This document shows, piece by piece, positions 17,867-52,134 of a DNA stretch of 64,000 nucleotides (position 1 is the stretch's first letter; every line of letters begins with the position of its first letter). This DNA is from an uncultured Nitrosospira sp. Lineage in GTDB: Bacteria > Nitrospirota > Nitrospiria > Nitrospirales > Nitrospiraceae. Under the pieces are notes generated by a model. It ran no database searches, was not told the origin of the DNA, and saw only the letters and a program-made list of their open reading frames with translations. A program made the position numbers and the translations under genes. The stretch spans positions 62,001 to 126,000 of the forward strand of contig CAADGK010000093.1 in NCBI GenBank assembly GCA_900696515.1, in the 5' to 3' direction.

Positions 17867-20800
17867 TCATGACGGCACCATCACTTCTTCCTGCACGATC
17901 CTGGCCCATTCCCCGTTCGGGCGATAGCGATACCAGTCTCCGGCCTCCGGGTCGAAGACGATCAGGTGAACCCATTCATTGTGATAATAATGCTGAAGAA
18001 CTTCATGCCGGGCAATGAGTTTTTCGATTCCGTTCCGAGGCGCTTCAACGATCGTCAACAACCGCATCGGCTCATGGTACGGCATCTCCCCGTTCATCAC
18101 CGTCTGCCGCGCTAATCCCAGTCGAAGATCACTCCAAGGACCGGACATGATGCCGAACCGTCCGACCACGTTGTGATAGATCTTGCTGCCGCTGCCATAG
18201 ACTTCGTTGTCGACGGCGGAAAAGTAGTGTTCCATGTTGATCCACTGTGCGACAACCTGAGGAGCGGTCAGCAAGACTTCCAGGAAACGCGTCGTCGGGT
18301 CTTCTCGATAGTCATACGAATGCAGAAACATCCGACCGGTGAAATCCAGCCCTTTCGTCCATTCGCGACGACCGACCAGGAACGTGGTATTCCCGGAGAG
18401 CCCCCACTCGGGTCGAACTTGACTCCAGTCCACGCTGCGCCCTTGCACATGAGCCGTGGCCTGTGATTCGTCCAACGGCTGCCGGACTTCCGGAAATCGA
18501 CCGCATCGCTCAAGGCTGGCCAGCTCCGATGCTTCCCGCAGATCATCCTGGAGCCGTGCGAGGTCGGCACGATGGGTCGGCGGCACGTCCTCGAGGTCGA
18601 ATAAATGGATCGTGTCCGTCGTGGTATTCATCTGGCCGGCGAGGAAATGCGTGTCGGACGGGATATCGATCCCGGTCTTCCGTAACCGCGCACGGACCTT
18701 GTCGTTGTTCGCCATCATGGCGAGGACCCGGGCATTGGGCTGTCCCTCGTTCCCGCCGCATGCGCCGCAGTCGAGCGCCGACTCATAGGGGTTGTTCTCC
18801 GATGCGCTGCCGTGCGCGCAGAACAGGATGAGCCGGGCAAAGTTCTTCGTCAGGCCCATCATCCGCAGGGCGGTCTCGACGGTCAGGGTCTGCTCCTCGA
18901 GCGTGAAGCCGGTTCTGGTCAGCCGTTCCTTGAATCGCGATGACGCACGCGGGTTGACGTCGTACTCACGTCGGAGAACGAGGATAAACGCGTCGAGCGC
19001 ATCTGCCTTCAAGCCGACGGCTTCCGCCTCGGTCAGGAATCCCGTGTCCGGCTGTTCTCCGCCCTGAAGGGCCCGCTGCCGCAGTCCCTCGATGAGCGAC
19101 GGGGTGATGTGCATGCTACGGAGCCCAAGGCGCTCCTGGAGCGCCATCCGTACCAGCTTTTGATGCTCGACCGTCAACATCTCCGAGGTATCCGTCGGGG
19201 ACAACTTGTTTACCGTCAGAGTGGTCGGGAGCGACGGCACGAATTGCCGCTGCAGCCAGCTTGCCACGCGCCGATAGAGCGACGGGAGGAGAGTCTTCCC
19301 GAAAATCGGGAGGCTATAAAACCAGCCGATGGACTCGACCATTACATAGGGAGTAATGACGTTTTCTTTCAGGTCGTGCATCAACGTGTGGCCCGCGTGG
19401 ACCCACTTCGTCCAGACCTGATGTTGCGAGACCTTGTGATCCAGATAGCTTCGCGGGATTTCGCGGACTTCGTTCTTGGCCCGCATGATGACGGGGAACT
19501 GTTCCGTATCATGCTCTTTCCCCCAGGCGCGGTACCGGATGAAGGCGGCGAAGAAGCCGGCGAAGCCAAAGGTCTCATGCGGGCCGATTGATTCGAGGTG
19601 GCGACGAAACGGCTCCGATCGGACATCGATGCAATAGACGGACTGTGAATAGGGGCGAAGAGGAGGGGTTGCCGGCTTGTCCGTGCGCTCCTGTTTGGAC
19701 GCGGCGACGAGTTGTCCGATCAATGGCTCGTGATAGCCGGCTTCGAAGGCCTTCAGCCAGACGATCCCGTGGTCCGATTCCGGGAAGGCCTCGATCCATT
19801 CGATGACCTGTTTCAACGCCTGGGGCTCACTCCCGACCAGTTGTTCATCGAGCATCTCGAGGGATCGGCTCAATGCGAGGAGTCGCCGGGCATTTCCACG
19901 CCGGCGCGCGGCCTGGTGTCTGGGAACCACCTCGGTACGATAGCGCGCGAGCACCGTGTTCCAGCCTTGTCCTTTCCGATGGGCCAGCCGATCGACTTCT
20001 TCGGCGTAGAGTGCCGGCAGATGCCCGGCGATCCGCTGTCGTCGCAGATAGTACTCTTCCGAATAGTCCCGCATATAGGCGACGATCTCGTCGAATCGTC
20101 CTTGAATATCCAGGTACTCCCGACAAGCCGCCTGCACAAGCTCACGGGCGTACCACAAGCGAATGGCGAGGAACTTCACCAGACCGACCGGGTGGGCCTG
20201 TTGCCAGGGATAGTCGCGTTCTTCTCCCCGCCATTTGATAAAGCCGGCCCACCCCGGGAGCGCGGTCAACTGGAGCGACAGATAATCCTGCCGCAGTTCC
20301 GTCGGAATGCCCAACAGGTTCAGACTGTCGAGCAGCGTGTCTTCCGGATGATCGGGGAGCGCGGCAATTTTACGGCGACTGTCGGGAATCCCGATGAGCG
20401 ACCATTCTTGTGCGGCGAGCCGCCTCCAGGACCGGTACAGCCCCTCGTCGCGGTCGGACATGGCCCACGCGGCATGCCCCTCGTCGAGAAAAGCCGAGCA
20501 CCACTTGATCATCTGCTCATTGATAGTCTGGACGATGGAGGTGCCAAGGGTGTCGTCACACCAGTGCGACAGGGTGAGCCACCGGCAGAGCGCCGAGTGG
20601 TTGGTCTCCACGACTTTTTTCACGCGATCGTCAAGGGAAGGCGTCTCCAGGACCTGCTCCAGCTTCCTCGCGATCCGCTCAATCAGATCCCGGTCGGGAT
20701 CATCCAGCTGATCGTCGAGCGGTTCTCGCACGGGGGAACAGATCCCCTCCGTCAGGCAAGCCCGCAAGACGTCCTTATGGGTCACCGAACGAGGTCCCAG

Positions 20801-21103
20801 GACGATCGTTCGATCGCTGGCCGAGGGCGGCAGGGCCGCATCCAGGTGCTCCACTCGAATGCGACCGGATGTGACGTAGGCACGATACAGGGCGCTCGGG
20901 AGGTAGCCGTCTCCATTCAAGAATTGTTTGCCGCGCCGGACCGTTTCTTCGAAGGGAAGATATTCCAGGCTGTGCAACGGATTGTGGTGGACGAACGTCC
21001 GCATCGGCCAGTACTGGGCGATGATTTCGCCCGCAAGGCGGACGACGCCGCGGAGTTCCATCCGTTTCGACTCGAGATCCATCGATTCATTCACCGGTGT
21101 CAT
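17867..21103 (-). CDS. dabA: DabA-type inorganic-carbon accumulation subunit (DUF2309/UPF0753)
   Basis: The ATG at 21103 overlaps the previous stop as ATGA, fixing the start; the frame extends upstream only within that gene. The 1078-aa protein is a DabA homologue, a beta-carbonic-anhydrase-like zinc protein that works with a membrane DabB subunit to trap CO2 as bicarbonate. The four expected zinc/catalytic residues are present: Cys491 and Asp493 in YCIDVRSE, His764 in CAHGSASENNPYES, and Cys779 in LDCGACGG. The C-x-D and H-x14-C spacings match characterised DabA. It is longer than the roughly 830-aa DabA of Halothiobacillus. The protein is soluble and probably bound to the inner membrane face. 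Confidence 0.88.
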   Translation of the reverse strand: MTPVNESMDLESKRMELRGVVRLAGEIIAQYWPMRTFVHHNPLHSLEYLPFEETVRRGKQFLNGDGYLPSALYRAYVTSGRIRVEHLDAALPPSASDRTIVLGPRSVTHKDVLRACLTEGICSPVREPLDDQLDDPDRDLIERIARKLEQVLETPSLDDRVKKVVETNHSALCRWLTLSHWCDDTLGTSIVQTINEQMIKWCSAFLDEGHAAWAMSDRDEGLYRSWRRLAAQEWSLIGIPDSRRKIAALPDHPEDTLLDSLNLLGIPTELRQDYLSLQLTALPGWAGFIKWRGEERDYPWQQAHPVGLVKFLAIRLWYARELVQAACREYLDIQGRFDEIVAYMRDYSEEYYLRRQRIAGHLPALYAEEVDRLAHRKGQGWNTVLARYRTEVVPRHQAARRRGNARRLLALSRSLEMLDEQLVGSEPQALKQVIEWIEAFPESDHGIVWLKAFEAGYHEPLIGQLVAASKQERTDKPATPPLRPYSQSVYCIDVRSEPFRRHLESIGPHETFGFAGFFAAFIRYRAWGKEHDTEQFPVIMRAKNEVREIPRSYLDHKVSQHQVWTKWVHAGHTLMHDLKENVITPYVMVESIGWFYSLPIFGKTLLPSLYRRVASWLQRQFVPSLPTTLTVNKLSPTDTSEMLTVEHQKLVRMALQERLGLRSMHITPSLIEGLRQRALQGGEQPDTGFLTEAEAVGLKADALDAFILVLRREYDVNPRASSRFKERLTRTGFTLEEQTLTVETALRMMGLTKNFARLILFCAHGSASENNPYESALDCGACGGNEGQPNARVLAMMANNDKVRARLRKTGIDIPSDTHFLAGQMNTTTDTIHLFDLEDVPPTHRADLARLQDDLREASELASLERCGRFPEVRQPLDESQATAHVQGRSVDWSQVRPEWGLSGNTTFLVGRREWTKGLDFTGRMFLHSYDYREDPTTRFLEVLLTAPQVVAQWINMEHYFSAVDNEVYGSGSKIYHNVVGRFGIMSGPWSDLRLGLARQTVMNGEMPYHEPMRLLTIVEAPRNGIEKLIARHEVLQHYYHNEWVHLIVFDPEAGDWYRYRPNGEWARIVQEEVMVPS

Positions 21104-22392
21104 GGAATCGCTCGCGAAAGATTTCCGGCCATCGACTGCGTGGCCGTCGACGTCCACCACTCGATGGGGGCCAGTCCCAGCACCGTGAGGATGACGATCG
21201 TGACGGTCAGGGCAGCCCATTCTTGCTGCACGACATCGCGATATCGAAGGTCACCGCGCCTGGTTCCGAACAACAATCGTTGCACCGCGCTCATGAGATA
21301 CCAGGAAGCCGCCAGCCAGGCCGACGACATGATCATCAGACCGATGAGTGACGGAATCGGCGCGTGGAGCAGCAAGCCCGTCAGTCCGGCGAAGACGCCG
21401 AAGGGGGGAAGCCCCATCGCCGCCAATGCCAACAGAGACAACAGCACGGCATAGCGCGGCATTGAAGAGGCCAATCCGCTGATCGAGGATGGATCGACGT
21501 CGTCGCCATAGCGTGTCCGAATGATTTGCCAGGCAATCAGCAGCCCGCACGTCGCAAGGCCGATGGAGGCGACAAAGACGGCGGCGCGAGACGTCGCCAG
21601 GCTGGATGCCGAGGTATGCCACCAGAGCATGGAAAAGAAGGAGAGACCGGCATAAGACAGCATGAGCCGAACGCGAGTCTGTGCCAGGGCTTTGACGGCT
21701 CCGTACAACGCTCCGATCAGCGCGAGGAGGCCGACGATCCCGGAGATCGCCGCAGGTATGATGTGCAGGGCCGAGGCCATGAGGTGCAGGCCGACGGCGG
21801 GAAGAAGAAACGCCGAGAATGAGGGGAGATTGCCGGGCAGCCGTGTGAGCGCAATCAGATAGCCGGTGTGGAACGGCAGGAGTGGGATCAGCACCGCCGA
21901 AGTGACCAGGGCCCCCAACGATGAAAGCGGATGGGTGGCCAGTGCGGCGACGATCACTCCAAGCGCGGCGAGACAAAACTGGCTGATCCCCCACCATGAA
22001 ATCGGCCACAAGATCGTGTGGTGACGTACCAACAGGCCGGTTATGGTCACCAACAATGCCAGGAGGAACAGCTGACTCAACGGCGCCGGATGGGCGATGG
22101 TACCGATCCCCAGTCCGAGGATGACCATGGTCATGAGCCAAGACAGACGGTGGTCCTTCTGAACCGGCTGTCCCAAGATGGAAATCATGGCCACGATCGG
22201 AAGCAGACCGAGGAGCAGGGCGCCCTCCGGCAGGTTTGTCGTCAGTTTCAGAATCGGGGCGACCGTGATGAGGCACCAGATGACGCACGATTTCTTCAGC
22301 TGCGGCGCGTCGTCCCAAAGTATTCGACCGGCCAGGGCGCCGATGAGCGGAATGCAGGTGGCAAGCCAAGAATAAATAATCGCGCTCGTCAT
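21100..22392 (-). CDS. ND2/ND4-like proton-conducting membrane subunit of the Dab operon
   Basis: The start at 22392 forms an ATGA overlap with the preceding dabB-like gene; a longer open frame to 23046 is a shadow inside that gene. The 430-aa protein is almost entirely membrane segments and has a complex-I antiporter-type layout, including LMLSYAGLSFFSMLWWH and a late MGLPPFGVFAGLTGLLLH loop like that of NuoN/NuoM. It also overlaps dabA by four bases. In characterised two-gene Dab systems only one such subunit is present, so this is an extra antiporter-like subunit. Its contribution to ion coupling is inferred. Confidence 0.75.
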   Translation of the reverse strand: MTSAIIYSWLATCIPLIGALAGRILWDDAPQLKKSCVIWCLITVAPILKLTTNLPEGALLLGLLPIVAMISILGQPVQKDHRLSWLMTMVILGLGIGTIAHPAPLSQLFLLALLVTITGLLVRHHTILWPISWWGISQFCLAALGVIVAALATHPLSSLGALVTSAVLIPLLPFHTGYLIALTRLPGNLPSFSAFLLPAVGLHLMASALHIIPAAISGIVGLLALIGALYGAVKALAQTRVRLMLSYAGLSFFSMLWWHTSASSLATSRAAVFVASIGLATCGLLIAWQIIRTRYGDDVDPSSISGLASSMPRYAVLLSLLALAAMGLPPFGVFAGLTGLLLHAPIPSLIGLMIMSSAWLAASWYLMSAVQRLLFGTRRGDLRYRDVVQQEWAALTVTIVILTVLGLAPIEWWTSTATQSMAGNLSRAIP

Positions 22393-24095
22393 CGCCGGGA
22401 CCACCCTTCTTCCTGCTTGTCGACCCAGTGGATAAACCGCAACGCGACTTGCCCCAGGCGCCCGTAGCATTCGTCGCCATACAACCGGTTGATGAGCGCC
22501 ACATACGCTCGGTGCCGGATTCTCTCGATCCAGGCCGGTATCCAGACACTTCGCCCATGGGCCTTCAAATAGAGGTAGATCCAGCCGAGGATGGTCAGGC
22601 CGGTTGCCCCGGCAAGAAGCAGGTCGAATAACCAATTGGGAAGGTCGGCGGCCTTGAAATAGGCGGCGACTTCGTCCGGATTGGGATAGAGGAACGCGGT
22701 AAACGATTCCACCGCAAACAGGTAGATGAAAACCACGAAGAGGAGCGTCACCAGCATGGTGGAGGACACTTTCCAGGATGCGACCGCGCGCAGCCGCGTG
22801 AGCGTCAGAATGGCCTGCGACGAAGTGATCCAAATGAAGAAGAGGATGATGACGGTCCCCTGAGACTCCAGCAAGGGAATGTGCAGCACCCCGTGGGTCG
22901 CCAGGAGAATCAGCAGAGGGATCACCAAACTTGTCAGAAGCCCCGTCGACCAGGTGAGCTTCGACAGCTGGTCCTCCTCGTGGTGGGTATGGCCTGGGTG
23001 GGGGAAATGTGGCTCGAGCCGGGCCTTCTGAATCACGTTTCCACAATTGAGAAAGACCGTGGCCTTAAACAGCCCGTGCGCGATGAGATGGAAGACGGCC
23101 AGCGAGAACGCGCCCAGCCCGCATTCCATGATCATGTATCCCATCTGGCCGATCGTGGACAGTCCCAACGTCTTCTTGATGTCGCTCTGCACCAGCATCA
23201 TGGAGGCCCCCAGCACCGCGGTCACCGTGCCGACCACGAGCGCGACGTGCAGGGTGACCGAACTCAGGCCGAAGAGCGGCGCCATGCGATTGATCAGGAA
23301 CCCTCCGGCATTGATGATGCCCGCATGGAGCAAGCCGTGTACGGGTGTCGGTGCGAACAGGGAACTCGGTAACCAGAGGTGAAGCGGAAACTGCGCGGAT
23401 TTCCCCATCGCCCCGACGAACATCAGCAGAGTAATGGCGGTGGCGGCATCGATGTCCATGCCTGGCCACAGTGCCACGGTGTGAGGGGCGGTCGTCGCGC
23501 GCGCGAACAGCTCGGGGATCTCCAGCGTTCCGTATACCTGGTAGGTGAGGATGATTCCCATCAGGAAGGCCATATCGGCCACGCGCAGCACCGTGAACGT
23601 TTTGTAGGCTCCGTCGAGCGTCGGAGCATGGCTATGGTTGTGCGCCAGGATGTAGAGCAAGTAACTGAGCAGTTGCCAGAACAGGAACAGCATCATGAGA
23701 TTGGCGCTGGATACCATGCAGAGCAGCACGAAGTCTGTGAGGCAAATCAACGTCAGATACCGTCGGTAGTGGCGGTCCTGATACATATAGTTCACGGAGT
23801 AGGTATAGATGATCAGGCTGACGGCCGAAATCAGCGTCATCATGACGCCGCTGAGCCGATCGATATAGAACCCGAAGGGGATCGGGAGAGACGCAACCGC
23901 GGCCGGGTTATAGAATTGGAGGGTGATCGGTCCCGAGACCGTCACGGCATACAGAGTCCCAGCAGCTCCCACACAGGCGGCTCCCATCAGCAGCGCGGCG
24001 ATCTTGGCGTGGGCATAGCGGGTCGAGTCTTCTGCGCAGACCACGACCAGCGCCGCGACCAGGGGAAGCAAAGGGATGAGCAGAGCAGCCCACAT
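22389..24095 (-). CDS. dabB: DabB-like (NuoL/ND5-type) membrane subunit
   Basis: The 568-aa polytopic protein belongs to the proton-conducting antiporter family. It shows FYIDRLSGVMMTLISAVSLIIYTYSVNYM, LFLFWQLLSYLLYIL, and the core FVGAMGKSAQFPLHLWLP followed by TPVHGLLHAGIINAGGFLI, as in NuoL. A histidine-rich loop (HFPHPGHTHHEED) follows the central segments. As first gene of an operon ending in dabA it is the natural DabB partner, thought to couple CO2 hydration to the ion gradient. The upstream leader contains a long-armed hairpin. Confidence 0.82.
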   Translation of the reverse strand: MWAALLIPLLPLVAALVVVCAEDSTRYAHAKIAALLMGAACVGAAGTLYAVTVSGPITLQFYNPAAVASLPIPFGFYIDRLSGVMMTLISAVSLIIYTYSVNYMYQDRHYRRYLTLICLTDFVLLCMVSSANLMMLFLFWQLLSYLLYILAHNHSHAPTLDGAYKTFTVLRVADMAFLMGIILTYQVYGTLEIPELFARATTAPHTVALWPGMDIDAATAITLLMFVGAMGKSAQFPLHLWLPSSLFAPTPVHGLLHAGIINAGGFLINRMAPLFGLSSVTLHVALVVGTVTAVLGASMMLVQSDIKKTLGLSTIGQMGYMIMECGLGAFSLAVFHLIAHGLFKATVFLNCGNVIQKARLEPHFPHPGHTHHEEDQLSKLTWSTGLLTSLVIPLLILLATHGVLHIPLLESQGTVIILFFIWITSSQAILTLTRLRAVASWKVSSTMLVTLLFVVFIYLFAVESFTAFLYPNPDEVAAYFKAADLPNWLFDLLLAGATGLTILGWIYLYLKAHGRSVWIPAWIERIRHRAYVALINRLYGDECYGRLGQVALRFIHWVDKQEEGWSRR

Positions 24096-30776: not shown

Positions 30777-31441
30777 TATGAAGCCACCTCCGGTCGAGGC
30801 GCGTGATAGATCTTGTATTCAGGTTGCTCCACTTGCGCCGGTTTCCAGGAACGCACCACCCAAATGATCATGCCGATCAGAAAGAACGCACTTGGAGGCA
30901 GGAGCAACAGGCCGTTCGGCACATACCATCCGCCATCCCGATCAAGAGGGAGGATCGGATACCCGAACAGGGAACCAGAGCCAAAGAGCTCGCGTATGAC
31001 TCCGACGACCATCAAGAGGGCGCTATAGCCGAGACCATTGCCAAGCCCATCGAGGAAGCTGGGAAACGGGGGATGTTTCATGGCATAGGCTTCCGCGCGT
31101 CCCATGACGATACAATTGGTGATAATCAACCCGACGAAGACCGACAGGTCCTTGCTGATGCTGAACGCATAGGCTTTGATGAACTGATCGGTGACGATGA
31201 CCAGTGACGAAATAATGGTCATTTGGACGATGATGCGGATGCTGCTCGGGGTATGATTGCGGACCAGGCTGATGGCGGCGTTGGAGAAGGCGGTGACGAC
31301 GGTCAGCGCGATGCACATCGTGATGGTCGTCGAGAGTTTCGATGTCACGGCCAGGGCCGAGCAAATCCCGAGGACCTGGAGGATGACCGGGTTATTATCG
31401 ACGATCGGTTCGAAAATGATCTTTTTGTGTTGGTACGACAT
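30776..31441 (-). CDS. nqrD: Na+-NQR subunit D
   Basis: The 221-aa membrane protein matches Nqr[27 protein letters not shown], the family motif [21 protein letters not shown], and [29 protein letters not shown]. It pairs with NqrE in an inverted-topology membrane pair around an iron centre. It starts five bases after nqrC ends. Confidence 0.96.
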
Positions 31442-31446
31442 GAGCG

Positions 31447-32256: not shown

Positions 32257-33457
32257 GGCGGCGGAGCCTCCGTTGGATGTTCAGCTGGACGACTGCATAA
32301 TCGATCAATGGCGCAAACACGTTGGCGAACAGAATCGTGAGCATCACGCCTTCCGGGAACGCCGGGTTTGCCACGCGGATCAGCACGCTCATGGCCCCGA
32401 TCAGAAGGCCGAACACCCAGCGTCCGGCGCTCGTCATGGCGGCCGACACCGGATCGGTGGCCATGAAGACCGCGCCAAAGGCGAATCCGCCCAGCACCAG
32501 GTGCCAGTACCAGGGCATTGCCACCATGGGATTGGTCTCGCTGCCGATCACATTGAATAAGAGCGAGGCCCCGATCATTCCTGCAAAGCACCCGACGATA
32601 ATGCGCCAGGAACCGACCCCCGTATAGATCAGGAACGCCGCGCCGAGCAGACAGGCGAGGGTGGAGGTCTCCCCCATGGAGCCCGGCATCAGGCCGATAA
32701 AGGCATCCCACCAGGTCAGGCCTCCGCGGACGATCTCGTCGACGCCGCCGACTTTCCCAAGGCTAAGCGCGGTCGCACCGGAATAGCCATCGACGGCTAC
32801 CCACACCCTGTCACCGGAAATTTCAGCAGGATAGGCGAAAAACAGAAAGGCCCGCGCGGTCAGGGCGGGGTTGAGAAAATTCTTGCCGGTGCCGCCGAAG
32901 ATCTCTTTGCCGAGGACCACGCCGAAGCTGATTCCGATGGCGACCATCCAGAGCGGCATATCGGGTGGCAGCGTCAGCGTGAAGAGCATGGAGGTGACCA
33001 GAAAGCCCTCGTTGATCTCTTTCCGGCGGACCGTGGAAAAGACCACTTCCCATACACCGCCGACGAGTAAGGTCACCAGATAGATCGGCAGAAAATACAG
33101 GAAGCCATGGACCGTATTGGCCAGAATATTGCCGGGATCAAACCCAAGATTGAGAGCCGTCAGGAGATCGTACCGCCAGCCCGTCTTGGCCACCCCCATC
33201 TTGGCGAGGGCCAGATTGGCCTGATAGCCGGTGTTGAACCAGCTCCACAGGATGCAGGGAATCAGTGCCACGACCACGTACATCATCAATCGTTTCAGAT
33301 CGATGCCGTCCCGCACATGAGGCGCCTGGTGTGTGGTCTCGGGAGTTGAATACAGAAACGCATCGACCATCTCGAAGATGGGATAGTACTGCTCATACCG
33401 GCCGCCCTTGGTAAACAGGGGTCTGAGACGATCGAGATAGCGTTTCATACCTGCCAT
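32243..33457 (-). CDS. nqrB: Na+-NQR subunit B (membrane core, covalent FMN)
   Basis: The 404-aa polytopic protein is Nqr[49 protein letters not shown] in its core. The FMN attachment motif is [10 protein letters not shown], with the acceptor Thr at residue 229. [20 protein letters not shown] follows. This subunit carries riboflavin and the Na+ pathway. Its start codon shares one base with the nqrA stop. Confidence 0.96.
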
Positions 33458-34815
33458 CAGCCTTCTTTCTCAATCTGGCTCAGCACGTTCCGCAGCACCG
33501 GGCCATAGTCGTTCTTCCCGACGCACACGAAGGAGCAGAGGGCGAGGTCTTCCTCGTCCAATTCCATGCAGCCCAGTTGTTGTGCCATGTCGGTGTCGCC
33601 CACCATGAGGTAGCGCAGCAGCTGTGTCGGGAGGATGTCCAGGGGCATGATGTCTTCGAAGTTGCCGAAGGGCACCATGGCGCGATGACCTCCGTTGAGC
33701 CCGGTGGTCAGCCCAAACTCCTCCTTGCGGTGGCGGAAGAGACTCGACAGCATGACGTTGCTCTGGGAGAAGGTGTTCCGCCCTGGCGTAAACCAGCCCA
33801 GGAACGTACGTTCGACCCCTTCGTGAATCACGGATATCTGGAGATGATGGCGCCCGAGATAGGACGACCAGCCGGATGCGTGACGTCCCGACAAGATCGA
33901 GCCGGAGATGGCGCGGTTCTCATCGTCTTGGACCTCACCCTCGATCAATTCCTCGATGCAGGCGCCGAGCCTGGTCTTGAGCAGCCGCGGCTGTTTCACC
34001 TGAGGTCCGCCGAGCGCGATGATACGATCGGTCCATAACCGGCCGCTGGTAAACAGTTTGCCGATCGCGATCACCTCTTGGTAGTTGAGGTGCCAGACCA
34101 CCTTGTTGACGTCGACCGGTTCGAGAAAATGAATGTGCGTTCCAGGCAAACCGGCTGGATGAGGACCTTCGAAGCTCGCCTGGCGAATTTGGTCTAATCC
34201 CTGTGGCAACGGCAGCTCCGCGTGGGGTGTCTTGCACACCCAAACGGGCATGGTGCCAAGGCGCGAAAGTACTGTGAGGCCATGACGGAACGACTCGGCT
34301 TCTGCCGTAATAATTGGACCGGGATCGGCGGCCAGCGGGTTGCTGTCCATCGCTGTCACGAAGATGGCCGCCGGCCGGGTGGTCGGGTCGGCGATCTTGC
34401 TATAGGGACGCGCGCGTAAGGCCACCCAGAGACCCGATGCCAAAAGATTCTCTATCACCTGCGCCTCGGTCAAACTGGTCAGTCGGTCAACTGGGTAGGA
34501 CGCAAATGTCTCCTCAGCTTCGGTGTCGTCGAGCCGGATGACGACTGATTGGAGCAGGCGTTGCGCGCCACGATGGATTGCCCGCACCGTGCCGGCGCCC
34601 GGAGCCGTGATGCGGACACCGGGTAACTTCTTATGCTCGAACAGCGCCTGGCCAAGCTTCACCTTGTCCCCTTCGGCGACCAGCATGGTGGGTTTGAGAT
34701 CGACATGATCCACGCCGAGCACGCCGACATGACGGACCGGTTTGGCGACATGGACCAGCTGCTCCGGCTTCCCGCTGATCGGCACATCCAGTCCTTTTTT
34801 GATTCTGATCATCAT
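33457..34815 (-). CDS. nqrA: Na+-NQR subunit A
   Basis: The open frame runs further upstream, but the family begins at the [19 protein letters not shown] segment, so the start is placed at 34815 (or the next ATG, 34812). The protein of about 452 aa matches NqrA through [50 protein letters not shown] and [19 protein letters not shown]. It is the soluble quinone-side subunit and first gene of the operon nqrABCDEF-apbE-nqrM. Confidence 0.94.
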
Positions 34816-35204
34816 GGCGGTTGCAATGACAGTCACACTGTCGTAACGGGTCAACCCACTATGGTTAGGAGGTACGATCCTGTGTACGCTGCTGGATGAG
34901 CCGGTCCTGTTCGTCAATCATCAGCACGGCCATAAAGGCTGGCAGTATACAGAGTCAAACCGCGCTAGTACAACCGTTCGGACATCGTGCTGTCAAGCCT
35001 TCAATTGGGGTCGTCTGGATCGACGGTTTCGGGTTTGAGGTTTCATGTTTTAGGTTGTCCAGAAACTTGGAGCCTCAAACTTGGAACCTGGAACCTGGAA
35101 CTTGAAACTATCCCAGGCAGTTGGGTGGCGAACCCTCGTGAACGATGAGGGCTAGGACGTCACATTGATCCTCCGACCTCCCAGTACTACACTGGTTCTC
35201 GGAC
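34816..35204. other. Divergent spacer between nqrA and the DUF72 gene
   Basis: This 389-base region must carry the nqr promoter on the minus strand and that of the DUF72 gene on the plus strand. Its right half is occupied by a repeat copy. No other gene or clear promoter motif is seen. Confidence 0.45.
35031..35155. repeat. Third copy of the intergenic repeat family (variant)
   Basis: The segment GGGTTTGAGGTTTCATG continues into AGAAACTTGGAGCCTCAAAC and short tandem AACCTGG units, closely resembling the module at about 25138-25207. It ends with CGAACC...GATGAGGGCTAG (35129-35155), like the right ends at 24.5 and 25.2 kb. The core and 33-base hairpin are absent. Confidence 0.5.
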
Positions 35205-40459: not shown

Positions 40460-40840
40460 TCAGTGTGCCGTTGATCGGACGAGCGGCTCGCGCAATTTGA
40501 TGATGAGCGTACTGCTTCCAACTGCCGGGTCGAGATCGGTCACAATGTTTTGAATCTTCGCGCCGATGGCATGCTCTATGCGTTCCTGTAGGACGTGCTG
40601 ACAGGAGTCAAACATGGCGCGATGAAATCGACGAAGCAGCTCATGGCCTTCCGGCGACCGTGCGAGTTCTTTTTCCGCTGGAATGGAAGCGCTTCTAGTC
40701 GATGTCACGTAGATCAGTTCATCGTACACATGGGCTTGCACGTGCGAAGAGCCGGACTTCATGAACTCGTTCTGAAAATCCAAGACTGTGAGCATGACGG
40801 CGTACTCCACCTCAGCTTTATTGTTGGCCACACTTGCCAA
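40460..40840 (-). CDS. DUF2294-like protein, second copy, TTG start (126 aa)
   Basis: The start is TTG at 40840, supported by GGAGGAGGG about nine bases upstream, inside the end of the previous gene. The sequence follows the DUF2294 plan seen at 24587: FQNEFMKSGSSHVQAHVYDELIYV, then EKELARSPEGHELLRRFHRAMF and AIGAKIQNIVTDLDPAVGSSTLIIKL. It is much diverged and lacks the conserved RGP motif. It is the last gene of the icd operon, three bases after the 70-aa gene. Role unknown. Confidence 0.7.
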   Translation of the reverse strand: MASVANNKAEVEYAVMLTVLDFQNEFMKSGSSHVQAHVYDELIYVTSTRSASIPAEKELARSPEGHELLRRFHRAMFDSCQHVLQERIEHAIGAKIQNIVTDLDPAVGSSTLIIKLREPLVRSTAH

Positions 40841-41136: not shown

Positions 41137-41487
41137 TCAATAGGCCTTGCTGAATCCGGCTTCTCCGTCGTAGTTCCACAGCTTTTGCGCGGCGGACCAC
41201 CACCAGCCCTTCTTGGTCAGGGCGTCCAGGAAGGTGTTCACATCCGCATCCTGCACATCCTTGGTGGCCATGAACCGGCACCGGTACCAGTTCACTTGAA
41301 GGAGATCGGGGCTCACGAAACCCGGCCACACCTTCGTCCCTCGGTTCGAGATGAATTCACATTTGAACGGTCCGATATCGTCGAACTTCGGGATGCCTTT
41401 GTCCGTAATGATGTACATATCGATTCCGACGAGCTTGATGTCCCGTTTCTTCTTTGTCGCCTTGGCGGTTTCGGTAAATGTCGGCAT
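41137..41487 (-). CDS. Stand-alone C-terminal domain of Thermus-type isocitrate dehydrogenase (116 aa)
   Basis: The ATG at 41487 has AAGGAGATAT just upstream; the frame continues 25 codons further but without family similarity. The sequence aligns from memory with the C-terminal extension of Thermus thermophilus isocitrate dehydrogenase: KLVGIDMYI, FKCEFISNRGTKVWP, VNWYRCRFMA and KLWNYDGEAGFSKA correspond to VVGVDVFV, ISNRGTQVYP, YRCRF and DGEPGFTKA. In Thermus this domain is fused to the catalytic domain and takes part in dimer interactions. Here it is a separate gene, 34 bases after the catalytic gene. It presumably binds that subunit. Confidence 0.85.
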   Translation of the reverse strand: MPTFTETAKATKKKRDIKLVGIDMYIITDKGIPKFDDIGPFKCEFISNRGTKVWPGFVSPDLLQVNWYRCRFMATKDVQDADVNTFLDALTKKGWWWSAAQKLWNYDGEAGFSKAY

Positions 41488-41521
41488 GGGATATCTCCTT
41501 GTTGAGTCTGTGCGCGGAGGC

Positions 41522-42535
41522 TTAGGCCTTCGCGTGCATCTTATCCACGATGGCTTGCGCATACTCGTCCGTCTTGGCCGTCCCGCCGACGTCGTATGTC
41601 ACATGCTTTCGCTCGTCAAGCACTGCAAACATGGCCTTCTCGATGCGAGCGGCAGCAGCTTCTTCACCGAGCCAACGAAGCATCATGATGCCGGAGACCA
41701 GCACGGCCGAAGGATTGACCTTCTTCATGCCGGCATACTTGGGTGCGGAACCGTGCACGGCTTCGAAGATCGCGCAGCCGTCACCGACATTGGCGCCGGG
41801 CGCAAATCCCAAGCCTCCCACTAGTCCGGCGCAGAGATCCGTCAGGATATCGCCGTAGAGGTTGGGCAGTACCAAGCAATCGAACTGAGCGGGATTTCGC
41901 ACCAGCTGCATGCAGCAGTTATCCACGATGATGTCACCGGACTCGATGTCCGGATACTTTTTGGCGACTTCGCGGAAGGCATCGAGGAAGAGGCCGTCGG
42001 TCATCTTCATGATATTGGCTTTGTGCACACACCAGACTTTCTTGCGCCCATTGTCCTTGGCCCACTTAAAGGCGAAATCAGCGATTCGGTAGGAGCCCGG
42101 CCAGGTAATGACTTTCAGACATTGCGCGACCTCATCCGACACCATGTGTTCGATGGCGGCATACGAGTCTTCGGTGTTCTCACGGAAATTGATGATGTCG
42201 ATCTTGTCCCAGGGCCGTTTGAGTACGGGGATGAGCTTCGCCGGCCGCACATTCGCGTAGAGATCAAAGACTTTCCGGAGGGTCACGTTGGCGCTCTTGT
42301 GTCCCGTTCCGATGGGTGTGGTCGTGGGCCCTTTCAACGCCACCTTGTTCTTCGCGATGTTTTGAATGGTCTTGTCGGGCAGGAGGGTGCCGTACTTCTC
42401 CAGACAGTCGAGCCCAATGTCCTCATATTCCCACTTAATGTCGACCCCGCTCGCATCAATGACGAGCCGCACCGCCTCGCAAATTTCCGGGCCGGTGCCT
42501 TCTCCCGGTAACATCGTTACGACGTGCTTTGCCAT
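41522..42535 (-). CDS. icd: Isocitrate dehydrogenase catalytic subunit (Thermus-type, lacks C-terminal domain)
   Basis: The 337-aa protein belongs to the isocitrate/isopropylmalate dehydrogenase family: MLPGEGTGPEI, KGPTTTPIGTGHKSANVTLRKVFDLYANVRP, INFRENTEDSYAAIEH, VHKANIMKMTDG, NLYGDILTDL and FEAVHGSAPKYAG. SANVTLRK is the isocitrate-specific phosphorylation-loop region. It is close to Thermus isocitrate dehydrogenase but stops where that enzyme continues for over 100 residues; the missing part is the next gene. It interconverts isocitrate and 2-oxoglutarate, and in a reverse TCA cycle would run reductively. GAGGAGGAT precedes the ATG. A sigma-54 promoter lies about 240 bases upstream. Confidence 0.9.
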   Translation of the reverse strand: MAKHVVTMLPGEGTGPEICEAVRLVIDASGVDIKWEYEDIGLDCLEKYGTLLPDKTIQNIAKNKVALKGPTTTPIGTGHKSANVTLRKVFDLYANVRPAKLIPVLKRPWDKIDIINFRENTEDSYAAIEHMVSDEVAQCLKVITWPGSYRIADFAFKWAKDNGRKKVWCVHKANIMKMTDGLFLDAFREVAKKYPDIESGDIIVDNCCMQLVRNPAQFDCLVLPNLYGDILTDLCAGLVGGLGFAPGANVGDGCAIFEAVHGSAPKYAGMKKVNPSAVLVSGIMMLRWLGEEAAAARIEKAMFAVLDERKHVTYDVGGTAKTDEYAQAIVDKMHAKA

Positions 42536-42776
42536 TCCGATCCTCCTCTTAAGCCTGGATCACGCATCAACTCTTCCACTGCAACCGCGGATACGGTGTG
42601 CCATGGGCGCATGTGGCTCAGTCCCTCTCCGTGCTCAATCACGTACGGCATGGTCCCTCGCCACAACCTGGGTCCATCTCACGACACGTCTACGACGTTT
42701 ACTCCGAAGGGTTGAGTTTGCTCCAAACTATGCAGTAAGGGAGCGGACCATCCGTTCCCATTAATTGCCAGTAAAT

Positions 42777-42791
42777 GCAAATTAGAGTCCA
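42777..42791 (-). promoter_or_regulatory. Sigma-54 promoter of the icd operon
   Basis: On the minus strand TGGACTCTAATTTGC carries GG and GC at the required spacing. The predicted start near 42766 leaves a leader of about 230 bases before icd. Paired dyads lie upstream. No gene is seen in the 42536-43030 spacer. Confidence 0.6.
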
Positions 42792-46025: not shown

Positions 46026-48398
46026 TCAATAGGCCGCCGGTTTCGAGAAGGTCCGGTTCGAGACCAAATCTAGTACATGGAGTCCGTCGAACTCTGCCTC
46101 ACCCGGGCCCAAGGCAATGAATCCTACCTGCCCGTCCTGAGGAAGCATGACATCGTCGACGGCGGCGATTTGTGCGCCATCGATGTAGACCGCGAGTCTC
46201 CCCTTATCGAGATGCAGAAAGTTGATTCGTTGGACTCGTATCGTATGCCAGGATTTTGACGCAAGCTTTGCGGTGGCTTGTCCGAGGATAGTCACTGTGC
46301 CGTTCACAACATGTCTGGTGGTGACCTGGCCGGTTCCAGGTTGAAGTGTGATGGCATAATAATTCGACGGGTCTGTGACGGCGATCGCGAGCCCGAGTTC
46401 GCCTTGATCAGTTGAACCGGGGGTACGTACCTGAACGGTCACATCCGGGTACGTGGTTCTGACGTCCGTGGCAATAAGGAGCCGGGCACAGTCCTGTATC
46501 AGGCAGGGGGCGGCGCCGACAAACCGGTGTGACCCATTTGGCATGGCCGGATCGGCTTGGATTTGCCATCCATCAGCTTGTTCGTTCGGTCGGTTTAGAG
46601 TGGCGAATCCGGCGGGAAGGCGTCCCAGTTGGTCCTGATCAAAATTCCATTGCCAGATGATGTCCTGTTTGGGCGGGTTCGCGTGGACGGCCACATCGAG
46701 AACCTCACGCGAACGTGGTGGGCTTGGCAGGACGATTGCGGAAGCCTCCGGAGTCAGCGACTTGACGAGATCGTTCGCGACCAGCTGGCCTTGCAGGCCC
46801 TTCACCCCGGGGATCCGATCTAAATCCTGTTTGACCTGACGCATTCGCTGCTGAAACCGATCCAGATTGCGTGGCACCGAGAGTGACTCCACTGCCGCCA
46901 GCGCATAGTGGGCATGGAGCGTATCGTAGGGTTGAGCCGACAGTTCAACCGCTTTTTCCGCTTCGGTGTAGGCTTGTTGCAACCAAGGATGGTCGTAACG
47001 TCGGTTCCACGACACAAACTGGATGCGATCCCAGGCGATCTCCGTCAAGATCTTCGCGTACTCGGCAGTACCGGGAGCCGTGTCGCGTAGCAACGCCTCA
47101 TGGATGCCAAGGGCACCGGTCGGATCATTGTTCCAGCGGGCCAGCGCGCCGAGGCGTCGGCGCTGTTCCGATGTGGCTTGCTCAAGTTGTCCCAATGCCT
47201 CGTAGGAGGCGAGCGATTGATAGAGGGCGTCCGCAGCCGGTTCATACCCTTCCGCCACTGCGGTTAATTCCTGTCGCCAAGTTTGGGCTTGGATTGTCCA
47301 ATAGAGTTCAGCGATTCGCTGGAGCGCTCCCCCGTCATTGGCCGCTAAGCCGCCTTTTGCGACGCCTTGTTTGAGCAAGGCTTGGTAGGCGTCCTCACCG
47401 CGCAGGAGATGGGCGTCTGGATGGTTCGGATCAATCAATAGGAGTCGAGTCAGGAATTCCGCCCGTTCAGCCAGTGGAAGATGTGGGGCTCGACCGAGAG
47501 CTGCCTGTATGATCGGTTCAGCCTCAGCCCGTGTCCACCATTGCGTCGATCCTGGAACGAGTTCTCCCTTCACAAACGGTTGAGTTGGGTTCGTTCGGTC
47601 AAACTTCCGCCCGTTCTCCGGACGGAGACCATAGTGGGTTGTCGCAATCAGTGGAGTGCCAGCCAATACCTCATTCATCACGGCTCGATCTGCAACAAAG
47701 CCGAACTTGCGCAAGCCGGTGACCACGATAAACCGGGCCGTGACTGCTCGCACCGGTCCAAACTGACGCTGAGATCCATTCACCCACCAGATCTCTTCCG
47801 GTCTGAGAGCGAGCGGAGCAGTGAACGGGTCAGGGTAGAGGATCTGAATATCCACGGCCTGACCGGATACGGAGACCAGCGAATCTTTCTTGATATTCGA
47901 CAGGGCAAACGATTGCACCGGGCTCGTGCGACTGACGGTCATCTGAGGAGTCGGCGCGTGGCCGTTTAAAACGATCGGCGGAGAAACGAAGACGGCCGGT
48001 GGGTAGTCTTTCCAATTCTCCGTGGCGCGGTGTCGATCCGCCAGGAGTCCCAGTCCGACTCCGCGACCAGTCGCGTTGAAGACGCCGGATTCCGCCTGTT
48101 GGTTCACCATCTGGATATGTCCACGTAACGTAGCGTCCCAGCAACGTCGGGCCACCTCCGGCATTAATGGTGATGGTTGCGTGCCTGTGGCTTCCCGAGT
48201 GTGATTCAGGCAGCCTAAATCAGCGGAAGCCCATGTCTCGATCCGGGACTGAGACAAGGCTTCGAGGTAGTGGAGCACAAAGCGGCTCGCGTCTTCGCCG
48301 GATTTGGGTGGAGAGGCGGCGGCGTGGTTCAACGCCGGATAGCCGAGAAGGACTATGCCGATGATAAAAATGCCGAGTCCAATGGGGCGTAAGAACAT
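46026..48398 (-). CDS. Large exported protein, helical repeats plus C-terminal ConA-like domain (790 aa)
   Basis: A signal peptide (GLGIFIIGIVLLGYPALNHAAA) is followed by an unrecognised N-terminal region of about 280 residues. A helical, TPR-like stretch spans roughly residues 310-530 (LLLIDPNHPDAHLLRGEDAY, LGALARWNNDPTGALGIHEALL). The C-terminal beta domain, from about residue 610, looks LamG/concanavalin-like: IIWQWNFDQDQLGRLPAGF, LGLAIAVTDPSNYYAITLQPG, LAVYIDGAQIAAVDD. I cannot name a family. It is first in a sigma-54-dependent operon with the CysD-like gene. Confidence 0.65.
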   Translation of the reverse strand: MFLRPIGLGIFIIGIVLLGYPALNHAAASPPKSGEDASRFVLHYLEALSQSRIETWASADLGCLNHTREATGTQPSPLMPEVARRCWDATLRGHIQMVNQQAESGVFNATGRGVGLGLLADRHRATENWKDYPPAVFVSPPIVLNGHAPTPQMTVSRTSPVQSFALSNIKKDSLVSVSGQAVDIQILYPDPFTAPLALRPEEIWWVNGSQRQFGPVRAVTARFIVVTGLRKFGFVADRAVMNEVLAGTPLIATTHYGLRPENGRKFDRTNPTQPFVKGELVPGSTQWWTRAEAEPIIQAALGRAPHLPLAERAEFLTRLLLIDPNHPDAHLLRGEDAYQALLKQGVAKGGLAANDGGALQRIAELYWTIQAQTWRQELTAVAEGYEPAADALYQSLASYEALGQLEQATSEQRRRLGALARWNNDPTGALGIHEALLRDTAPGTAEYAKILTEIAWDRIQFVSWNRRYDHPWLQQAYTEAEKAVELSAQPYDTLHAHYALAAVESLSVPRNLDRFQQRMRQVKQDLDRIPGVKGLQGQLVANDLVKSLTPEASAIVLPSPPRSREVLDVAVHANPPKQDIIWQWNFDQDQLGRLPAGFATLNRPNEQADGWQIQADPAMPNGSHRFVGAAPCLIQDCARLLIATDVRTTYPDVTVQVRTPGSTDQGELGLAIAVTDPSNYYAITLQPGTGQVTTRHVVNGTVTILGQATAKLASKSWHTIRVQRINFLHLDKGRLAVYIDGAQIAAVDDVMLPQDGQVGFIALGPGEAEFDGLHVLDLVSNRTFSKPAAY

Positions 48399-48651: not shown

Positions 48652-50058
48652 TCACTCGGCAGCGGGTTTTCGACGCCGGTCCAGCATCCAGCGGGTGATG
48701 CCGAGATGCTTGGCGGCCAGAGACTTGTTTCCATCGGACCGCTGTAATACTTCGTTGATGATGCGGTCCTCAAGGTCGGTTAAGGATTCACCAAGGCGGA
48801 ATGAAAGATGGATCTGGGAGGGATCCACTGTGTCTGAAAACGGCAACGGAGGGTCGGGAGCACTGAGAACTGGTTGCGCGGGAGTCTCTCGCACATCAGA
48901 GGGAAAATGCCCCGCTTCAAGTGTCTCGCCGGGGCAGAAGAGTACCGCCCGTTCCATCAGATTACTCAACTCACGCACATTTCCTGGGAAATGATACCGC
49001 TGTAACAGCGTCTCCGCACTCGCTCCCAAGACCCGAACCGGTTTGCGAAGTGCAAGCGCCGAGCGGGTTAAGAATTGCATCGCTAAGGGGATGATGTCCT
49101 CCGGTCGTTCTCGCAGCGCAGGAATCGTGAGGGTCACGACGTTCAGCCGGAAATAGAGATCTTCGCGAAACTCGCCTTTGGCCACCGCGTCTTTCAGATT
49201 GCGGTTCGTGGCCGCCATGAACCGCACATCCACCGGGATCGTGGCGGATCCTCCCACACGGCGGAGCGTCCGTTCCTCGATAACCCGCAAGAGCTTCGCT
49301 TGTAAGGGGAGAGGGAGGTCGCCGATCTCGTCGAACAGAAGCGTGCCTCCCTCCGCCATCTCCATCAATCCGGTCTTGCGGCCCGCCGCCCCCGTAAATG
49401 AACCTTTCTCGTGGCCGAAGAGCTCGCTTTCAAACAGTTCGCGTGGAATCGACGGACAGTCGACTTCAATACAGGGTTTGTGAGCCCTCGCGCCGTTATA
49501 GTGAATGACACGGCCGACGTATTGCTTTCCTGTTCCCGTCTCACCTTGGAGCAGGACGGTGACTCGCTCATTTTTGACGAGTTCCCTGACCTGGGACATG
49601 AAGGTCTGGGTGGCGGGGCTCTTGGCAATGACTCGGTCGAGCGCGTATCGGTCGGCGTCTTGCCCGCTCCGCGCATGGACCTGGCGCTGCAACGTCAGCA
49701 GCTGCGTCGCTCTGCTCAAGGCATGCAGGAGGTCTTCCATGTCGATGGATTTGGCCACGAAGTCGAAGGCGCCCAGCTTTGTCGCCTCGACGGCGTCCTT
49801 CACCGTGCCTCTCGCGGTGACCAGAATAACAAGTAAGTTGGGTGAGGTCTGTTTGACCCGTGCGAGTACGTCCAAGCCCGTGAGATTCGGCATGACCAGA
49901 TCAAGCACAAGAATATCCGGTTCATAGGTGCGCAGCAGCCCGAGCGCTTCCTCGCCCGAACTCGCGGTCTGAACCAGATAGCCGTGATCGCTGAGGCGCA
50001 GGGCGAAGGCCTCGCGAACAGACGCTTCATCTTCGACGAGCAACAGTTGCCAGGTCAT
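48652..50058 (-). CDS. Sigma-54-dependent response regulator (NtrC family)
   Basis: The 468-aa protein has three parts. The first is a receiver domain with phospho-acceptor Asp53 in DILVLDLVMP. The second is an AAA+ domain with Walker A GETGTGKQ, the sigma-54 contact loop as GSFTGA (instead of GAFTGA) and LLFDEIGDLPLPLQAKLLRVIEE. The third is a short Fis-type helix-turn-helix (NKSLAAKHLGITRWMLDRR). It should activate sigma-54 promoters when phosphorylated. The histidine kinase gene lies six bases upstream in the same operon. It is the best candidate for the protein that binds the GTGC-N6-GCAC dyads. Confidence 0.95.
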   Translation of the reverse strand: MTWQLLLVEDEASVREAFALRLSDHGYLVQTASSGEEALGLLRTYEPDILVLDLVMPNLTGLDVLARVKQTSPNLLVILVTARGTVKDAVEATKLGAFDFVAKSIDMEDLLHALSRATQLLTLQRQVHARSGQDADRYALDRVIAKSPATQTFMSQVRELVKNERVTVLLQGETGTGKQYVGRVIHYNGARAHKPCIEVDCPSIPRELFESELFGHEKGSFTGAAGRKTGLMEMAEGGTLLFDEIGDLPLPLQAKLLRVIEERTLRRVGGSATIPVDVRFMAATNRNLKDAVAKGEFREDLYFRLNVVTLTIPALRERPEDIIPLAMQFLTRSALALRKPVRVLGASAETLLQRYHFPGNVRELSNLMERAVLFCPGETLEAGHFPSDVRETPAQPVLSAPDPPLPFSDTVDPSQIHLSFRLGESLTDLEDRIINEVLQRSDGNKSLAAKHLGITRWMLDRRRKPAAE

Positions 50059-50064: not shown

Positions 50065-52134
50065 TTACCGCTCGGGTTTTAGGGGAAGCCAAACCTCCAC
50101 GACGGCTCCGTTTCCGGGCGGGCTGGTAATCACCAGTTGTCCGCCATGCCGTTCGATGATGTCGTGGGTGATGGTGAGTCCAAGCCCGACACCTTTTGCC
50201 TTCCCACTGGTAAAGAACGGTTCGAAAATTCGTTTGAGATCGTCGGGGTCAATCCCTTTCCCCGTATCGGAGAAAGCAAGAAGCACACCAGGCCCTCGCC
50301 GAGATTCCGTCCGCATCGTGATCGTGAGGTCTCCACCGTTCGGCATGGCATCGATCGCATTCATCATAATGTTGAGACAGACCTGCTGAAGATGCGCACG
50401 AGAGGCTTCAACCAGCGGCAGATCCGGGGCAATCATTTTTCGTACGTGAACGTGCTGCTTGGTCAAGTTCGGTTTCAAGAGAGTCATGCCGTCGTCGATG
50501 AGTGCGGGAAGATCACAGGGATGGAGTTCGAACGGCCGCGGTCGAAGTTGGCTGAGGTGAGACTCTAGCAGCTCGTCGATACGAGTGGCTTCCCGCGCGA
50601 TGAGCCGGCAGCGGTCTCTGGCCGCTTTCGGCAAGTGCTCCTGGTCAGCCAGATGGGTTGCGAGGCTCCCGAGCCCTATCAACGGATTGCGGACCTCGTG
50701 CAGAATGCCGCCGGTCAATTGCCCGACCAGTTTGATTTGTTCCGCATGTCGTAACGCTTCCAGCATCTGCTCCCGTTCGGTCAAGTCCATGAGGATGGCC
50801 ATATAATATTGAGTTGTGCCGTCACGATCTTTCACCGGGCTCACGCTCTCCCAGACGAGGAATTCCGATCCATCCTTCCGTCGATTCACAAACCGGTCGA
50901 CAAAGGCGTGGCCTGCCCGCAGTGCCTGCCAAAGTCGGTCGTAAAATGCTTGGTCATGTTTTCCGGACTTTAAAATGGAAGGACGTTGTCCCAATGCTTC
51001 CCGGCTTGTCCAGCCGGTCATCCGTTCGAGAGCAGGGTTCCACTCCAAAATACAGCCGTCTGTGTCGGTCAACATGATCCCGTCTTGTGCCGCCGTGAAT
51101 AATCGATGATAGAGGTCCCGTTGCGTATCGGCTCGCCGCCGTCGCTCCAGCACGGTCGCCACGGTATTGGCGACGGTACAGAGAAACTCGAGTTCCGTGA
51201 CGGTGTAGTCGCGAACCGATTTTGAATGGGCGGTCATGGCGCCGTACACCCGATCCTCGACCAACATCGGGACGCACATGCCTGCGATGCCGCCATGTTC
51301 AGTAAGCAGTTTCGACGGGGTGAACCGCGTCTCCTGACGCAGGTCCCGGACGACCACGGGGAGTCGTTCTCGAATGGCGTAACCGGCCTGCGAATGGGTG
51401 CCGCCTTCAATGGTCAACTTCCCGATCAGATCAGGGGCGAGACCGATTCCTGCGACGACGGCGAGATGATCGTCTGATTCCCGCTGAACGAGAATCTTAC
51501 AAAGCTCGACGTGGAGTGCCTCAGCCGTATGGATGACCGCTTCATTCATCAACTCCTGCGCCGGTGCGTCGCTGACCGCCAGCGTTCCGATACGGGCAAG
51601 CACCGACTGAAACCGGGCGATCTGTGAGGCTTCCTGAACCAACTCCGTATGCTCGGTGACGTCTTGCAGAACTAACAGCACGCCGGTCTTCCCATGGTAG
51701 GGGACCACGTGATATCGGCATTCGTAGACGAGTGTCTGGCCTTGGCGATCGAGGAGACGATAGGTTTTGCTGCCTCGTGCCCCGAGAGTGTCCTTATTCC
51801 AGGCCATGGCATCGGCGAAGAGCTGCGCTCGAAGCGTCGCATCCTGAGCGGGCGAATGGTCCAACTGCGCAGTCGGTGTTTCCACCAGTTCGCCGAATTG
51901 CGAATTTTCAAATATGAGAATTCCCTTGGCGATGAAGCAAAGCCCGCCCTCGAGGCAATCGCTCACCCAGGCCAACACCTCCGCTGCGGCGACTTCGGGT
52001 TTGGCACGGGCGGCATCTTTGGACTGAACTGCAGGGGGCGTACGGCGTTTCACGCAGAGCCTCTGTCGTGTGAATACGTCATATTGGGAACGGATAGTAT
52101 ACCGAGGTGACGGAGATATCGTCGAGTGAGCCAT
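50065..52134 (-). CDS. Sensor histidine kinase (PAS-GAF-PAS-HisKA-HATPase)
   Basis: The 689-aa protein has no membrane segment, so it probably senses a cytoplasmic cue. Domains are a PAS-like region (about 55-165), a GAF domain (about 185-325, AGYAIRERLPVVVRDLRQETRF), a second PAS domain (about 335-455, DGIMLTDTDGCILEWNPALERMTGW) and a dimerisation helix with phospho-acceptor His479 in GGILHEVRNPL. An ATPase domain with NMMMNAIDAMPNGG and FSDTGKGIDPDDLKRIFEPFFTSGKAKGVGLGL follows. It is the cognate kinase of the adjacent sigma-54 response regulator. Confidence 0.94.
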   Translation of the reverse strand: MAHSTISPSPRYTIRSQYDVFTRQRLCVKRRTPPAVQSKDAARAKPEVAAAEVLAWVSDCLEGGLCFIAKGILIFENSQFGELVETPTAQLDHSPAQDATLRAQLFADAMAWNKDTLGARGSKTYRLLDRQGQTLVYECRYHVVPYHGKTGVLLVLQDVTEHTELVQEASQIARFQSVLARIGTLAVSDAPAQELMNEAVIHTAEALHVELCKILVQRESDDHLAVVAGIGLAPDLIGKLTIEGGTHSQAGYAIRERLPVVVRDLRQETRFTPSKLLTEHGGIAGMCVPMLVEDRVYGAMTAHSKSVRDYTVTELEFLCTVANTVATVLERRRRADTQRDLYHRLFTAAQDGIMLTDTDGCILEWNPALERMTGWTSREALGQRPSILKSGKHDQAFYDRLWQALRAGHAFVDRFVNRRKDGSEFLVWESVSPVKDRDGTTQYYMAILMDLTEREQMLEALRHAEQIKLVGQLTGGILHEVRNPLIGLGSLATHLADQEHLPKAARDRCRLIAREATRIDELLESHLSQLRPRPFELHPCDLPALIDDGMTLLKPNLTKQHVHVRKMIAPDLPLVEASRAHLQQVCLNIMMNAIDAMPNGGDLTITMRTESRRGPGVLLAFSDTGKGIDPDDLKRIFEPFFTSGKAKGVGLGLTITHDIIERHGGQLVITSPPGNGAVVEVWLPLKPER

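Follow-up and report, generated by a model that had tools for sequence, protein, structure and literature searches.

The window, the whole stretch of 64,000 nucleotides that was analysed, belongs to a genome (G000) of 4.6 Mb in 144 contigs, 99.99% complete, whose nearest named relatives are Nitrospira. On its minus strand lie two neighbouring genes that match, one after the other, the two parts of a Thermus-type isocitrate dehydrogenase (IDH), each with its own strong Shine-Dalgarno sequence:

41522..42535, minus strand: predicted catalytic subunit, 337 aa, with the Iso_dh domain (PF00180) and the NADP-type motif HGSAPKYAG
41137..41487, minus strand: predicted small subunit, 116 aa; PF18324, the Thermus IDH C-terminal "C2 clasp" domain, as a separate protein
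41495..41500, minus strand: Shine-Dalgarno sequence AAGGAG of the small gene, 7 nt 5' of its ATG
42542..42547, minus strand: Shine-Dalgarno sequence AGGAGG of the catalytic gene

The stop codon of the catalytic gene is separated from the ATG of the small gene by 34 nt, and the frames of the two genes differ. An earlier reading of the window, made from its letters only (the sequence-only reading), had described a catalytic protein that ends where Thermus IDH continues, and a second protein that supplies the missing domain. Both descriptions hold: the 337-aa chain matches residues 20–355 of the Thermus enzyme (2d1c) and stops where that enzyme goes on, while the 116-aa protein, with a ribosome-binding site of its own, corresponds to residues 385–492. 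The motifs cited in the same reading (ISNRGTKVWP, YRCRF and YDGEAGFSKA) are all found in the window, as are the 34-base spacing and the new start.

The catalytic protein contains a complete isocitrate/isopropylmalate-dehydrogenase domain (PF00180, E = 5e-101) and is ~51% identical to the catalytic part of Thermus IDH. The residues aligned to Thermus Tyr144, Lys191 and Asp248—which we take to be the catalytic Tyr, Lys and Asp of IDH—are conserved, as are the isocitrate-binding Ser/Asn/Arg residues. At ~30% identity to the Thermus domain, the small protein is a modest match. Its only Pfam match is PF18324 ("Bacterial isocitrate dehydrogenase, C-terminal domain"; E = 2.2e-14, 53.9 bits, cut-off 25), its sole good match among PDB sequences is the 2d1c segment given above (E = 1e-9), and its alignment score with the Thermus C-terminal domain is 135, whereas 2000 shuffled versions of it score 52 at most. 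Together, the two proteins span the Thermus chain, with the break falling in its inter-domain linker. Neither protein reaches a curated NCBIfam cut-off: each alone scores below that of PRK09222 (catalytic protein 396.5 bits, small protein 47.7 bits; cut-off 509), and the best NCBIfam score of the catalytic protein, to PRK08997, is 425 bits (cut-off 510).

The motif HGSAPKYAG occurs in 47 of the 47 complete catalytic chains of the two-gene type, and Thermus IDH has the same; the NAD-type relatives Xanthomonas IDH and human IDH3 alpha carry an Asp-Ile pair at the Lys-Tyr position. In IDHs, Lys-Tyr instead of Asp-Ile after HGSAP goes with the use of NADP. Since the Lys-Tyr motif is present in all 47 chains, the two-gene enzyme probably uses NADP.

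Whether the arrangement is particular to this genome was answered by a survey of 395 Nitrospirota genomes. The small protein finds matches in 59 genomes at E ≤ 1e-3, and the catalytic protein in 169 at E ≤ 1e-60. Under strict criteria (a full-length small-protein match with at least 65% identity; a catalytic match with at least 80% identity), the catalytic gene occurs in 51 genomes and the small gene in the identical 51, so that the split proposed in the sequence-only reading is conserved in the lineage. All 52 pairs are adjacent and on the same strand, with 19–88 nt between the matches and frame relations 0/1/2 in 13/24/15 cases. The PF18324 profile matches 53 of the 395 genomes: the same 51, G267, and the broken copy of G177. 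Among the eight further genomes with a small-protein match, G267 has a single fused gene (521-aa frame), six (G177, G191, G252, G262, G318 and G366) have a decayed or partial copy, and in G237 the match is weak and partial. The pair is present in 49 of the 51 named loci, and is distributed over Nitrospira, Leptospirillum and its kin, and one more lineage (L070/G159); from the named loci and regulator identities, group f22 is taken to be the Leptospirillum family. Nitrospira moscoviensis carries two pairs (L051 and L059), each with a separate match to the leader described below, plus a monomeric IDH.

Both genes are under strong purifying selection. An alignment of 32 small proteins has 46 invariant columns, and the dN/dS of the small gene is ~0.01–0.07 against Nitrospira relatives with estimable dS, several distant comparisons being saturated; values for the catalytic gene are similar. 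Distances between catalytic proteins correlate with those between small proteins (r = 0.93 over 46 pairs), a value that shared descent alone could yield. The two-gene version of the Thermus-type IDH is genuine and conserved. Outside Nitrospirota, a search of plasmids for a stand-alone small domain gave one match, in Deinococcus, annotated as one 1479-nt CDS; a literature search, with subscription papers and preprints outside its scope, returned no description of a two-gene IDH.

It is very improbable that the two frames nonetheless yield one fused chain, be it through a sequencing or assembly error, a programmed frameshift or stop read-through. Such a chain would be helped by the fact that in the window the last 77 nt before the catalytic stop are also open in the small-gene frame, and by the 11 of 50 pairs in which the two genes share a frame. 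In many relatives, however, the small-gene frame is closed there. Across the named pairs and the window (n = 50) the gap ranges from 10 to 108 nt, and the frame relation varies (0/1/2 in 11/23/16 cases), as it does among the 52 surveyed pairs. In 49 of the 50 pairs, the start of the small gene has a Shine-Dalgarno-like motif (4–7 nt) in front of it, the exception being L050, where the script detected only an internal start of the small gene. The pair also recurs in independent assemblies, one of them the complete chromosome of N. moscoviensis. For the lineage as a whole, the variable frames and gaps, the Shine-Dalgarno motifs and the independent assemblies refute an error or a fused chain. The earlier statement that this is no simple frameshift is borne out by a pair that is kept across the lineage while its frame relation and gap vary.

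The two genes also disappear together. One Nitrospira (KAN-bin2; L081/G177) has lost both: the leader is followed by the catalytic start MGKQH and then directly by a small-gene remnant with a stop, flanked by the same neighbours as the pair in the window. The deletion, which runs from the catalytic start into the small gene and leaves leader and neighbours in place, is seen at L081:3700-4340. Four genomes of a sister family (G191, G252, G318 and G366) hold small-domain remnants that are fragmented or contain stops, and have no catalytic gene; in one of the four, an 11-residue scrap of the catalytic gene lies just 5' of the remnant, a weak match (E = 0.22).

For the role of the small protein, Thermus IDH offers a model. 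According to PMC3521221, this enzyme is a subfamily IV homodimer with ~100 additional residues at the C-terminus, which build a larger clasp on top of that of the dimer; a subfamily IV enzyme minus that C-terminal clasp resembles subfamily III. With a structure model of the small protein alone (pLDDT 77), Foldseek finds a single match at E ≤ 0.001, namely 2d1c, to which the model aligns at a VIA-align Z of 9.9 (rmsd 5.2 over 100 residues). A read-through single-chain model of the pair (L035 plus 47 further rows) reached pLDDT 57.6 and pTM 0.52 and left the C-terminal domain unplaced; the VIA-align list for this poor model holds catalytic-domain matches only and is uninformative on the interface either way. 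Because the single-chain fold failed, the interface between the two proteins is one that we infer. A loop of the clasp, considered as a hallmark of enzymes with the C-terminal domain, was dropped as such, the loop of human IDH3 alpha being nearly the same.

The small protein could, alternatively, have left the enzyme to become a separate regulator or the partner of something else, with the 337-aa protein a self-sufficient homodimer of the Xanthomonas/IDH3 type. Unfused relatives without any C-terminal domain do exist, so that the catalytic chain could act alone, and the small-protein model also has a ferredoxin/ACT/PII-like arrangement (Z 5–6.5), a fold common in regulation, although such Z values are frequent by chance. 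We consider this unlikely: the small gene accompanies the catalytic gene, adjacent to it, in 51 of 51 genomes, the two are lost jointly, and the only clear structural and sequence match of the small protein is an IDH domain. A physical complex of the two proteins is highly probable, and there is a strong case, built on these comparisons, that the pair encodes a heteromeric enzyme in which the Thermus-type C2 clasp would act in trans. A heteromeric NADP-dependent IDH is very likely. In the mechanism that we propose, the 337-aa protein would be a complete catalytic chain, and the 116-aa protein would bind it in trans as a C2 clasp over the dimer clasp, completing the dimer interface.

How the two-gene form arose is a separate matter. 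In a catalytic-domain tree, the split chains form one clade (support 100/99); a branch (96/94) sets the fused enzymes apart, and the split chains group with unfused enzymes. The tree contains four fused rows only, with the Thermus row on a long branch, and was built with leuB_OUT, L121, L115 and L128 removed. Because the split clade is not nested among the fused enzymes, the tree does not show fission. The word "split" in the sequence-only reading is sound as a description of a conserved two-gene Thermus-type enzyme; as a statement of direction it may or may not hold.

The two-gene enzyme is not the only IDH of these cells. A monomeric IDH (PF03971) was found in 26 of 28 genomes tested (absent in G019, of f22, and in the fused-enzyme genome G267), including all 15 tested genomes of the window's family (f1) without an intact pair; several Nitrospira are without the pair. 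G019 has an E. coli-type NADP-IDH in addition to its pair. In the window's genome, the gene order is ATP-citrate lyase (two subunits), aconitase and, directly after these, monomeric IDH; upstream lie genes of the 2-oxoacid:ferredoxin-oxidoreductase type. The reverse-TCA cluster to which the lyase, aconitase and IDH genes belong occupies G000:C80:1-18500 (L131). A second citrate-lyase/oxidoreductase set is located on contig C58 of the same genome.

The sequence-only reading had connected the split enzyme with a reverse TCA cycle, in which, according to PMC8407350, the step between 2-oxoglutarate and isocitrate poses a large thermodynamic barrier. That connection has to be corrected, as the reverse-TCA cluster carries a monomeric IDH after aconitase. 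The two-gene enzyme is an additional IDH outside the cluster—a second IDH, because the cluster has its own beside aconitase—and, judged by gene content, it is probably not the main reverse-TCA IDH of the cell.

What lies around the pair hints at a job in handling CO2, since this second IDH tends to stand beside genes for CO2 uptake. The following neighbours were identified:

17867..21220, minus strand: DabA, a subunit of the inorganic-carbon pump; its distance to the pair in the window is 20 kb
21100..23046, minus strand: DabB-like, proton-antiporter-type subunit
40460..40840, minus strand: MpsC-family gene, next downstream of the pair; a relative is present in 25 of the 51 named loci
48652..50058, minus strand: sigma54-activating response regulator; a homologue adjoins the pair in the Leptospirillum family
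50065..52134, minus strand: GAF-PAS sensor histidine kinase that presumably works with the sigma54-activating regulator

Positions 17519-34917 hold dabA, the dabB-like gene, a PII-like gene (a tblastn match only), NqrA and an NAD/FAD/2Fe-2S oxidoreductase. Positions 46026-48398 encode a 790-aa protein that has no Pfam or NCBIfam match; in 6 of the 51 named loci, a relative is found close to the pair or to what remains of it.

A dabA gene (PF10070) is present in all 52 pair-bearing genomes, namely N. moscoviensis and the 51 of the survey. In 25 of them dabA is no more than 5 kb from the pair, where 0.58 would be expected at random places, in 33 no more than 10 kb (0.98 expected) and in 36 no more than 25 kb (2.15 expected); these genomes are related and share gene order by descent, and do not count as 52 independent cases. 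In 15 genomes, the contig of the pair carries no dabA, and in G147 the two are 3.3 Mb apart. In the arrangement of G145, a Mur-ligase-type gene separates the pair from dabA, which lies upstream and on the same strand; in that of G097, it converges on the pair, with PII and mpsC genes between; in that of G019, it lies on the other strand, beyond the sensor kinase and sigma54 regulator.

The pair could, alternatively, be an ordinary duplicate IDH whose inorganic-carbon neighbourhood is functionally meaningless, an explanation to which we give somewhat less than an even chance and which is compatible with a heteromeric enzyme. Descent accounts for shared gene order, and the monomeric IDH in the reverse-TCA cluster, like the several Nitrospira that live without the pair, fits a duplicate. 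Against it, dabA lies within 5 kb in 9 of the 17 genomes of f22 and likewise in 16 of the 35 remaining genomes with the pair, and the linkage takes three or more different arrangements; and among genomes with data, leuB lies within 5 kb of dabA in none of six, and monomeric IDH in none of five.

The region upstream of the pair bears on its expression. Two elements were recognized in the window:

42776..42791, minus strand: sigma54-like -24/-12 site, TGGACTCTAATTTGCA, 256 nt 5' of the catalytic ATG
42744..42754, minus strand: CGGATGGTCCG, first half of the Nitrospira leader element, the part still present here

Sigma54-like sites were called as the best GG-N10-GC match within 400 nt in 46 upstream regions. 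In 40 of these, the site lies 77–101 nt before the catalytic start, at 77–84 nt in 27 Nitrospira-type loci and at 92–101 nt in 13 Leptospirillum-type loci; L051, L062, L064, L070 and L078 have none near the catalytic start. Compared with close relatives, ~177 nt between site and ATG are additional or replaced in the window (42536-42743), and the first catalytic codons differ too. Searches for sigma70 promoters detected none (1.1 expected), and terminators were not above chance.

In Nitrospira, the sigma54-like site is followed by a leader that contains CGGATGGTCCG and CCCTTGCTGCTTAAGGGAGG (L036:2880-2961 and equivalents, alignment A3; window 42744-42791). In its second half, CCCTT can pair with an AAGGG that overlaps the ribosome-binding site, making a hairpin over that site possible in Nitrospira; because the leader is nearly invariant, the pairing is unproved. 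In relatives, this second half extends over the ribosome-binding site; the window lacks it. When 12 genomes were searched with a covariance model of the leader (R1), 8 gave matches, at nine places (two of them in N. moscoviensis), all directly before a split pair or the G177 remnant; the genomes without a match are G019, G000, whose leader is altered, and two Nitrospira that have no pair. Rfam has no family at cut-off for the leader, the one sub-threshold match, to a microRNA, being meaningless. Leptospirillum-type loci have a different leader hairpin, with the loop TTCAATG, in which four of nine pairs show compensatory changes, both sides having changed (L066:2878-2974 and equivalents, alignment A4).

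The dabA linkage, together with the conserved leader and the sigma54-like site, suggests that the pair is expressed conditionally, in relation to inorganic-carbon supply. The pair would then be a second, dispensable IDH next to the monomeric one, with expression tied to inorganic carbon, and it might carboxylate 2-oxoglutarate under limiting CO2. The parts of this proposal differ in strength. A role linked to CO2 supply is tentative, a little short of an even bet, and we regard it as a well-supported lead rather than a demonstrated function; that the enzyme works in the carboxylating direction is doubtful. The fullest version—a CO2-responsive, two-subunit carboxylating IDH whose separate C2 clasp controls assembly or direction, switched by a sigma54 two-component system along with DabAB and furnished with a leader RNA able to hide the ribosome-binding site—is more doubtful still, at perhaps one chance among several. 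If the proposal is true, Nitrospira and Leptospirillum possess a heteromeric bacterial IDH with a non-paralogous second subunit; its link to an inorganic-carbon pump would permit a direct test of how autotrophs adjust carboxylation to CO2, and the separate small protein, which can be added or omitted, would be a natural probe of the role of the Thermus C-terminal domain.

Of the known systems, the Thermus-type IDHs of subfamily IV (2d1c; PRK09222/TIGR02924) are alike in both domains, in the active-site residues and in the Lys-Tyr motif. They differ in being one chain of 480–500 residues, where the Nitrospira enzyme has two (337 and 116 aa); the latter also lies outside the fused enzymes in the tree, with each part below the PRK09222 cut-off. 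The unfused PRK08997/IDH3-like enzymes (Xanthomonas 6m3s, human IDH3 alpha) share length and fold with the catalytic protein, and human IDH3 alpha has a similarly short clasp; this group, however, has the Asp-Ile motif and no known partner gene for a C-terminal domain, whereas the two-gene enzyme has Lys-Tyr. The mitochondrial NAD-IDHs (IDH3; yeast IDH1/IDH2) are, going by the names of their PDB entries, also heteromeric, but their subunits all match the catalytic protein and are thus paralogues, whereas the second subunit here is an unrelated domain. Finally, the monomeric IDH (PF03971) of the same cell has the same predicted reaction, but belongs to another Pfam family and is located in the reverse-TCA cluster.
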